Assembly (NCBI RefSeq): GCF_004762035.2
Contig: NZ_SIJK02000008.1
Coordinates: 1-64,000 of the forward strand
Origin: Candidatus Chloroploca mongolica
Lineage (GTDB): Bacteria > Chloroflexota > Chloroflexia > Chloroflexales > Chloroflexaceae
Reading direction: 5' to 3'
Length of the DNA stretch: 64,000 nt
Shown here: positions 5,337 through 34,894 of the stretch, piece after piece
How positions within the stretch are numbered: position 1 is the first letter of the stretch
How the letters are laid out: the number at the start of each line of letters is the position of its first letter
The notes under the pieces: model-generated
What the model was told of the DNA's origin: nothing
Databases searched by the model: none
What the model saw: the letters and a program-made list of their open reading frames with translations, nothing else
Translations under genes and position numbers: made by a program

Positions 5337-6848
5337 ATGGATCAAAGCATCCGTCACCCTACCGGGCCGACACTGGTTGTGGAGACTGAACAAAAGAGTA
5401 TACGTCGCAGCCGACATTTCACCGCCCTCGGGATGTTGCTCTGGGATCTGGCCCTGATTCTCACGAGTGTGGTTTTTGCCTACTGGTTGCGTTATACGGC
5501 AAACTGGCCTGAACCTTTTGACCGCATTGTTTCAGAAGTAGCAACTCAGAATCAGGTCGAATTTGAGGCTTTTTTGCCAATTTTTTTACCTATGATGGTG
5601 TTGCTTGCCTTCCAGTTTGGTCGGCGTGGGCTCTATCAGCTATCTCCTCGCCTCAGTTTGCTCGATCAAATAGGCATTATTGTGAGCAGTACCCTCACGG
5701 TGATCGCCTTCCTGATTGTGGTCGTCTTTCTCTATAAGCCTTTTTACTATTCACGGCTGATCTTTGCCTTTACCGGGGCAACGATCATCCTGCTCCTCTC
5801 GGTGTGGCGTGTCATCCGTACCGGAGTGCAGCACTGGCAATGGTCACGCGGGATTGGTCAAGAACGGGTACTCGTGGTCGGTGGAAGCGGACTCGGCCAG
5901 GATGTGATGAATGGTATCGTGAGTTCGCCGGGCCTTGGCTATGCGCTCGCTGGCTATCTCAATGATCGTCCGGTCGTTGAAAATGGACGGGCGACTCGCG
6001 TCTATCGGCACCTGGGTGATTTTGATGACCTCGAGCAGGCGATCCGCGCAAGCAACTCGCAACAGGTCATTCTTGCACTGCCCTTCTGGGAACAGGGACG
6101 GTTGCCCGAGTTCGTCATGATCTGTGAGCGCCTCGGGGTCGAGTATCTGCTTGCTCCCGATTTTTATCAACTCAGTTTTGATCGAGTTGATCTGCATCAA
6201 CTCAGTGGCGTGCCCCTCTTGCGGCCCAAAGAGATCCGGTTGCAGGGTATTAATCTGACGATTAAACGGGTGATGGATGTCGCCCTTGTACTTGCCCTTG
6301 CACCTGTGATCCTGATGATCGGGGCGCTTGTGGCCCTGCTGGTGCGGCTTGACTCACATGGGCCAGTGATCTTTCGCCAGCAACGCGTCGGACGAGGGGG
6401 CACGATCTTCAATTGCTATAAGTTTCGTACCATGGTGCCTGATGCCGAGGCGCGCAAAGCTGAACTGGCACACCACAATGATGCCGATGGTCCGCTCTTC
6501 AAAATGCGCGACGATCCCCGCATTACCCGGATCGGACACTTCCTGCGCCGTAGCAGTCTCGATGAACTGCCCCAGCTCTGGAATGTGCTCCGTGGTGAGA
6601 TGAGCCTGATCGGGCCTCGCCCGGCCCTGCCGGACGAAGTCGCACGCTATGAACCATGGCATCGCCGCCGCCTGGAAGTAATGCCTGGCTGCGCTGGCAT
6701 TGTGCAGGCCCTCGGGCGCAGCGATATGTCGTTTGATGAACAGGTGCGGCTCGATATCTATTACGCCGAAAACTGGTCGGTCAGCATGGATATCCGTATT
6801 ATGTTGATGGTAATCCCGGCAGTGATCGGGGGGCGTGGTGCCTACTAA
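5337..6848 (+). CDS. Polyprenyl glycosylphosphotransferase (initiating sugar transferase)
   Basis: Membrane enzyme that would transfer a sugar-1-phosphate to undecaprenyl phosphate, the first step of exopolysaccharide or O-antigen assembly. Four hydrophobic segments (about residues 30-160) come first, then a Rossmann-like CoA_binding_3 domain (about 175-300), a fifth membrane segment (about 320-345) and the bacterial sugar-transferase domain to the C-terminus. Signatures in that last domain include KFRTM (near 362), SLDELPQ (near 417) and GPRP (near 436). The usual KPGITG motif reads MPGCAG here. A strong site AGGAGG precedes ATG 5337. It is the first gene of a four-gene polysaccharide set. 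The sugar specificity cannot be read from sequence. Confidence 0.93.
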
Positions 6849-33732: not shown

Positions 33733-33775
33733 AACGCACACCGAGACCGGCCTTTGGCCGGTCTCGGTGTGCGTT
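33733..33775. repeat. Palindromic terminator between convergent genes
   Basis: 20-bp perfect arms around TTT (core ACCGGCC-TTT-GGCCGGT), between the ATPase gene and the selenoprotein gene. Right next to it is the stop codon of the latter. Confidence 0.8.
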
Positions 33776-34599
33776 TAAAAATCCCAGCCCTCAGGCAGAG
33801 CATACCGTTCGCGGCGCCAGCGCCAGTCCGGCTCAAAAATGAGGCCCGGCTCTTCGGCGGTATAGAGCTTTTCGAGCGCGTAGTGGATCACGCTTAGCTG
33901 TTGCGCGGCATTGCCTGGTTCGCCGAGCGGATGCCCAAACGGCCACTTGAGATGCACCGTACGCGGTGGGCGCACCCGTTCGGCAATCTCGCGCAGCCCA
34001 ACAATGCTCACCGTTGCGATGCCAGCGGCCTCAGCGGCGCGTGCGATCAGTCCCACGGACTGATTGCAGAGTCCTCAGCCAGGGGTGAGCAGCAGCGCAT
34101 CGACGCCTTCCTCGCGCATCAAACGCGCCGCCTCAGGTGCCGTCTCATTGATCAAAGCCTCGAGATGGGGCGGCTCGATATGGCCCATAAAGCCATAACA
34201 CGTACCCAGGCTGCCGATATGGCCGGCAGCAACAAGATCGCGCAGATGTTCCAGCGGGAAGAGAAGATTGAGATCACGGTCGGCATTGGTATGATCGTAA
34301 TAGTCATGCGTGATCATCAAATCCTCACGCGGGGTCGCAGAAGGGATCGAGCGAAAGGTCGCATCGCCCCGGGAATCAGCCATATCAAACGGCGTCTGGC
34401 TGCGCAGATGAACGCCACCAGTCGTCGCGAGGGCTATGCGCACCTCACGCAACGGCTTCTGCAACCGGGTAAACGGCACCTCTTCACTAATCACCGACTC
34501 AAACGTCCGGCCCCACGTCTGAGCCAGGGCGGGCACATGCGACAAAACCTGCCCAAACATGCGTGACAAATTCTGGCGCAACCCATCAAAATCTGACAT
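33775..34599 (-). CDS. Selenoprotein of the glycine/sarcosine/betaine/D-proline reductase B family (GrdB/PrdB-like)
   Basis: Read as one gene of 274 residues with UGA at 34077-34075 decoded as selenocysteine (residue 175). ATG 34599 follows AAAGGA. Both sides of the UGA belong to one family: before it, RIALATTGGVHLRSQTPF, FPLEHLRDL and EGVDALLLTPG; after it, GLCNQSVGLIARAAEAAGI. Across the UGA this gives PG-U-GLC-NQS, a Sec-x-x-Cys redox motif exactly where this family carries U in U-x-x-C-x-QS-VGLIAR. The frame is unbroken, there is no other stop, and a stem-loop follows the UGA at the spacing of bacterial SECIS elements. The protein probably reduces a substrate with Sec as nucleophile; the substrate is unknown and need not be glycine. 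It is normally annotated as two fragments (34075-34599 and 33775-34056). selA, selB, selC and selD are not in this window. Confidence 0.88.
34046..34064 (-). promoter_or_regulatory. Candidate bacterial SECIS element
   Basis: On the coding (minus) strand, ATCAGTCC-GTG-GGACTGAT forms an 8-bp perfect stem. It begins 10 bases after the UGA, and its loop begins 18 bases after it, with G as first loop base. These are features of bacterial SECIS hairpins recognised by SelB. The hairpin is itself coding. Confidence 0.7.
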
Positions 34600-34617
34600 A
34601 TATTTTTCCTTTATGGT

Positions 34618-34646
34618 GCAAACGGCCAGCTTCGCTGGCCGTTTGC
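34618..34646. repeat. Family A palindrome, GCCAGC-TTC-GCTGGC
   Basis: Perfect 13-bp arms just upstream of the selenoprotein gene start, followed by GCATACGCATAGGGC and the small module AGGGCTACCGCCCT. Confidence 0.85.
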
Positions 34647-34730: not shown

Positions 34731-34894
34731 GTGGCGCGGCTGCGCCGCGCCACGAGATTTTTTGGTTCGTTTTGGCGGCTTCGCCACCAAAGCGAACCAA
34801 AAACTGGGGTTTGCGGAGGCTTTGCCTCCCCCAGGCCCCGCGTAGGGTAGCGCAAGAGGCTAGCTTTGCTAGCCTCTTGCACTACCCTACGCGG
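34731..34894. repeat. Cluster of four adjacent hairpins
   Basis: Four palindromes stand almost end to end: GTGGCGCGGC-TGC loop (34731-34753); a 21-base arm pair starting TTTTTGGTTCG (34759-34803); GGAGGC-TTT-GCCTCC (34815-34829), with outer CTGGG/CCCAG; and a 27-base arm pair around TTT with core GCTAGC-TTT-GCTAGC (34838-34894). The rest of the 34600-34913 gap holds no gene. Confidence 0.75.

Follow-up and report, generated by a model that had tools for sequence, protein, structure and literature searches.

D-proline reductase does not function without its pyruvoyl subunit PrdA, nor do the glycine-type reductases without GrdE and GrdA. Of the described assemblies, the GrdA/GrdB/GrdC complex is treated in a 2026 review, which in its passage on the family also devotes one line to selenocysteine (Sec)-containing “PrdB” (PMC13188914). 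“PrdB” with a UxxC motif is a catalogued Sec family in the survey passages that deal with it (PMC1088965, PMC2398784, PMC13188914). These passages report 42 “PrdB” sequences from the Sargasso Sea, where the family ranked third in abundance among known selenoprotein families (PMC1088965), 235 Sec and 110 Cys forms from Global Ocean Sampling (PMC2398784), and single entries for Anaeromyxobacter and Geobacter uraniumreducens (PMC1794560). A missing PrdA is not discussed in the passages on PrdB of any of these four sources (PMC1088965, PMC2398784, PMC1794560, PMC13188914). Our literature search found no paper on PrdB-like or “selenoprotein B family” proteins, and what it returned on selenoproteins and selenocysteine in Chloroflexus dealt, by title and abstract, with other topics.

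Here, we describe a gene of this kind from the window, by which we mean the whole analyzed stretch of 64,000 nucleotides from Candidatus Chloroploca mongolica (contig NZ_SIJK02000008.1), a filamentous phototroph. Since Sec “PrdB” has been catalogued since 2005, the kind itself is already known, and the window gene adds one more example to a known kind that is mis-named or at least unproven. The catalogued PrdB sequences likely belong to the clade of the window gene or to its sister clades. The features of the locus are as follows.

33775..34599, minus strand: selenoprotein gene of the PrdB/GrdB superfamily with U175, one continuous frame if TGA is taken as Sec, with matches to PF07355 and TIGR04483
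34075..34077, minus strand: UGA codon for Sec175, in a U-x-x-C motif with Cys178, supported by UGA conservation and by Cys in the relatives L152 and L153
34046..34064, minus strand: bacterial SECIS-type hairpin within the coding sequence, 8-bp stem AUCAGUCC/GGACUGAU, loop GUG, supported by compensatory changes, recoding z and fold
34607..34612, minus strand: Shine-Dalgarno-like AAAGGA, 7 nt 5' of the ATG, read in the sequence
33735..33773, minus strand: 18-bp inverted repeat 3' of the TAA, before a convergent ABC-ATPase gene, read in the sequence

An earlier note on this DNA had joined two same-frame minus-strand ORFs across a lone UGA into one protein, and both the arrangement and the joined product were read back exactly. 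The ORFs at 34075-34599 and 33775-34056, listed separately under translation table 11, are the two halves of one gene, whose frame runs on the minus strand from 34599 to 33775 with 274 codons, one TGA at 34077-34075 and a terminal TAA at 33777-33775. Sec falls at residue 175 of the 274-aa product, in the context TPGUGLCNQSVGLIAR. The inverted repeat at 33735-33773 is probably a terminator hairpin. An Rfam search of the locus gave miRNA matches over this repeat, all below gathering scores, and these were rejected as chance matches to a hairpin. Three intergenic palindromes lie 5' of the gene (34618-34646, 34759-34803 and 34838-34894). Their core, GGCCAGC..GCTGGCC, has 7 matches in the window versus 0.2 expected and thus probably marks a dispersed palindromic repeat family of the Chloroploca genome.

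The genome of the organism (6.3 Mb, 99.8% complete) encodes the full apparatus for Sec use that the earlier note had anticipated: tRNA-Sec (70.8 bits; called tRNA-SeC(tca) by ARAGORN), SelA (553 bits), SelB (321 bits plus a C-terminal domain, in one 632-aa ORF), and SelD (379 bits). The selD gene (L018, G000:C72:130459-131388) is of the Sec type, with an in-frame UGA of its own at SSAGUASK; SelD is thus a selenoprotein too, which brings the Sec genes of this genome to two or more. Across 158 genomes, full SelA was found in 50 of 56 carriers of the gene versus 69 of 102 noncarriers (Fisher p = 0.003, uncorrected for kinship). Within one genus, a single genome (G006) has neither the gene nor SelA, and seven others have both. 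The Sec trait and the gene go together.

The UGA is conserved across a class that is widespread, with at least 582 stretches recovered in one genome scan. Each of the 30 class relatives examined has it, as do 79 of the 80 nearest relatives from named genomes, which are spread over Chloroflexota, Deltaproteobacteria lineages, Nitrospirae, an Acidobacteriaceae MAG, and others. Carriers that are grown as laboratory strains include Chloroflexus, Herpetosiphon aurantiacus (L126), and Geomonas silvestris (L146). The DNA pattern used in the scan began 3' of the UGA codon, so that the UGA was not imposed by the search. Residue 175 is thus U in 79 of 80 relatives and Cys (TGC) in two more, L152 and L153, located on Roseomonas and Haematobacter plasmids, in line with the expectation of the earlier note that homologs would carry U or C at this position. 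A sequencing error, one of the findings on which that note would have fallen, does not account for a UGA encountered repeatedly, in dozens of independent genomes. Among named genomes, that of Candidatus Chloroploca sp. Khr17 (L071) is the nearest, with a protein 94% identical. Among members of the genus, the 99 codons 3' of the UGA display a dN of 0.004 and a dS of 0.18-0.22 (about 0.2), hence a dN/dS of about 0.02, values that indicate strong purifying selection on the codons after the UGA. One relative, L149 (near position 6500; Deltaproteobacteria bacterium GWB2_55_19), has GGA (Gly) at the Sec codon with an intact hairpin. Either a sequence error or the recent loss of the Sec site may explain this, and a loss would leave room for a role without Sec.

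The 8-bp stem-loop was found exactly where it had been claimed, beginning 10 nt after the UGA and with its loop 18 nt after it. Its arms (34064-34057 and 34053-34046) form a perfect 8-bp stem around the loop GUG at 34056-34054. In the window gene alone the fold is at most moderately unusual (z of -1.44 versus shuffles), but comparison across sequences settles the matter. Pairing holds for 95.9% of stem cells across the 101 distinct UGA regions of homologs, and sliding one arm by 1-3 nt in the same regions drops it to 7-51%. Folding is more stable than in synonymous recodings for 92% of sequences (mean z of -1.6). Compensatory changes are observed at stem pairs 15-31 (a T-A to C-G switch), 19-27, and 18-28, the last alternating between CAG/CTG and CAA/TTG, which is synonymous in both codons (91 G-C, 9 A-T, and 1 mismatch); the exchanges in the stem include AAT/ATC with AAC/GTC. 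The observed arrangement is far beyond chance. No SECIS-type hairpin was predicted in the two Cys-coding relatives L152 and L153; L065, a Sec-coding relative of these two, has the hairpin, with one pair compensated.

Several relatives vary at the Sec site itself. A Chloroflexota subfamily has a UxxU motif with two in-frame UGAs (PAUPIUHQSVALVQRAIERRG; L061 4016-4720, L062 7327-8004, and L066 7479-8159) and is also found in genomes G134, G053, G094, and G135. It probably represents a double-selenocysteine active site, judging from the motif, and its hairpin is weaker at the register of the window gene. In L064 (7426-8070, genome G083) the motif reads UPHVCHRS, where Sec and Cys stand one residue further apart, giving UxxxC and changing the predicted redox spacing; homologs scoring similarly to L064 are found in G082 and G084. 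Another superfamily member, L067 (7939-8685, genome G088), carries no Sec and no Cys at this position (PGGPLSHQ), and G088, a genome only 51% complete, contains no full-scoring selA. Finally, L157 (6001-6732, on a Peptoclostridium acidaminophilum plasmid) is annotated as prdB with no prdA among the listed neighbors, and in Clostridia, too, the name PrdB may be assigned too liberally.

The reading of the product as a Sec-containing, reductase-like protein of the GrdB/PrdB family gains support from profile matches. With 31.8 bits, PF07355 (GRDB) exceeds its threshold of 22, which places the protein in the superfamily, and the match covers model positions 211-345, the C-terminal part of GrdB. The best NCBIfam model is TIGR04483 (PrdB) with 174.2 bits, under its equivalog cut-off of 300. 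The protein is nearer to PrdB than to GrdB (174 versus about 50 bits) and shares 34-38% identity with the PrdB encoded in clostridial and enterococcal operons. A tree of 41 sequences puts it into its own clade (99/94), which includes relatives from the other phyla and stands apart from operon-borne PrdB (100/100). Residues in common with PrdB include H64, H98, Y101, D102, D109, U175, C178, R187, and R213, whereas Y100, H103, H140, P173, N179, H223, and W261, among others, are invariant over 107 sequences of the clade and differ in PrdB. PrdB signatures are altered as well, among them SHGGYDN to THDYYDH, GFMGGGG to FMGHI, and GANAGEP to FGHPLGEP. With the core residues shared and their neighbors clade specific, the redox core appears kept and its surroundings changed. 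Together, these matches assign the protein to the GrdB/PrdB superfamily, but not as a proven D-proline reductase.

The earlier note also saw no partner subunit nearby. For PrdA/GrdE and GrdA, the partners tested, this holds and extends genome- and clade-wide. PF09338 (PrdA/GrdE) was found in 0 of 45 Chloroflexota carrier genomes, with a Terrisporobacter prd plasmid as positive control, and GrdA in 0 of the same 45, with Peptoclostridium acidaminophilum as positive control. PrdA over the cut-off was found in 0 of 26 carrier genomes of other phyla (control, 976 bits), and the genome of the window likewise returned no PrdA. No gene neighbor is conserved beyond the genus, and nothing among the neighbors points to a pathway; the immediate neighbors in relatives show no relationship to each other and include DUF547, histidine kinase, TetR, CofD, phosphorylase, TrkA_C, and DegT aminotransferase genes. 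A defense library gave no match. The AlphaFold model is confident (pLDDT of 93); Foldseek returned no match to it at E <= 0.001, and VIA-align gave middling Z values (best, 7.5). In the absence of a convincing PDB match, we make no fold assignment. Neither single-sequence nor profile search found a solved relative, and the proposed chemistry therefore builds on PrdB/GrdB homology and the UxxC motif.

How firmly the locus can be read differs between its decoding and its function. That the UGA at 34077-34075 encodes Sec is as good as established at the level of sequence, because five independent lines converge: the machinery, the conservation of the UGA, the selection downstream, the covarying hairpin, and the Cys-coding relatives without a predicted hairpin. 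The UGA could instead be a true stop, leaving a pseudogene or two separate ORFs, just as table 11 lists the two halves; a stop codon kept in dozens of independent genomes, followed by codons with a dN/dS of about 0.02 and by a covarying hairpin, in a genome with the full Sec machinery, makes this vanishingly improbable. Pseudogene, sequencing-error, and alternative-code readings are ruled out by the conservation, selection, and tRNA-Sec data.

The function leaves more room. The protein might be an ordinary PrdB of D-proline reductase, whose PrdA is encoded elsewhere in the genome but has diverged strongly or gone unrecognized: PrdB is its best-scoring family at 174 bits, identity to operon-borne PrdB reaches 34-38%, many residues are shared (H64, H98, Y101, D102, D109, U175, C178, R187, and R213 included), and earlier surveys, in their passages on such sequences, label them proline reductase (PMC1088965, PMC1794560). 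We regard this as quite unlikely given a score under the 300-bit cut-off, the separate clade in the tree, the altered signatures (for example, THDYYDH for SHGGYDN, FMGHI for GFMGGGG, and FGHPLGEP for GANAGEP), and the missing partner, with PF09338 in 0 of 45 carriers and PrdA over the cut-off in 0 of 26 from other phyla while controls were positive. Another reading takes it as a housekeeping or detoxification protein of the thiol-disulfide or peroxide type, in which the GrdB/PrdB fold is reused as an antioxidant in facultative aerobes. A solitary gene without catabolic neighbors, the wide spread over phyla, and the UxxC motif would fit such a role, as would the place of “PrdB” among the most abundant surface-ocean selenoproteins in the corresponding survey passages (PMC1088965, PMC2398784), since Stickland-type catabolism would be unlikely in the surface ocean. 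The many invariant residues far from UxxC point more to a specific substrate pocket than to a general-purpose disulfide exchanger, and a thioredoxin fold is absent among the structure matches listed, which weighs slightly in the same direction; an antioxidant role thus seems unlikely. That the multi-phylum, solitary PrdB-like clade, entered in metagenome surveys as proline reductase, is a different enzyme, with no pyruvoyl subunit, with clade-specific histidines, possibly with a metal, and with a substrate new to selenium, we put at somewhat short of an even chance.

Gene structure, Sec coding, machinery, family, and the absence of PrdA/GrdE and GrdA can each be read from the sequences, and we consider it likely that the locus is one gene for a Sec-containing, PrdB-like oxidoreductase working as follows. 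SelB with Sec-tRNA(Sec) would decode UGA 175, aided by the hairpin 10 nt downstream. The U175/C178 pair (UxxC) would form the redox site, at which the U175 selenolate would attack and reductively cleave a bond in a small substrate, and the resulting U175-C178 selenenylsulfide would then be re-reduced by a thioredoxin-like dithiol donor. As PrdA/GrdE and GrdA are missing from the genome, the protein would have to bind and activate its substrate alone or with a further partner, without a pyruvoyl group. The clade-invariant Y100, H103, H140, H223, and W261 may serve in substrate activation, and the histidines specific to the clade could help to activate the substrate or to bind a metal. A dithiol-coupled, Sec-dependent reductase of a small substrate is most likely, and the substrate, as the earlier note suggested, may be new.

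Standard gene finding splits such genes at the UGA, and they are easily missed even though the class is widespread. If the catalogued PrdB entries belong to partnerless clades, a major natural use of selenium has been named after a reaction that it probably does not catalyze. The absence of PrdA, together with H103, H140, H223, and W261, provides signatures by which the clade can be recognized.

Among known systems, PrdB (TIGR04483), the 26-kDa Sec subunit of D-proline reductase, is homologous over about 215 residues and has in common with the window protein the UGxC motif, SECIS-type decoding, and H64/H98/Y101/D102/D109/R187/R213. PrdB and PrdA are encoded together in a prd operon, whereas the window protein has no PrdA in any genome tested, and H103, H140, H223, Y100, N179, and W261 replace PrdB residues in its clade. 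GrdB, GrdF, and GrdH of the glycine, sarcosine, and betaine reductases (PF07355, TIGR01918) also display a UxxC site, but selenoprotein B comprises about 435 aa and the window protein about 270, and the carrier genomes are without a GrdE-type pyruvoyl protein and without GrdA. L152 and L153 of aerobic Alphaproteobacteria, annotated as “glycine/sarcosine/betaine reductase selenoprotein B family protein,” form a distant, Cys-coded subfamily without a predicted SECIS-type hairpin; like the window gene, they belong to this superfamily and stand alone, and their motif is CxxC where the window protein has UxxC.
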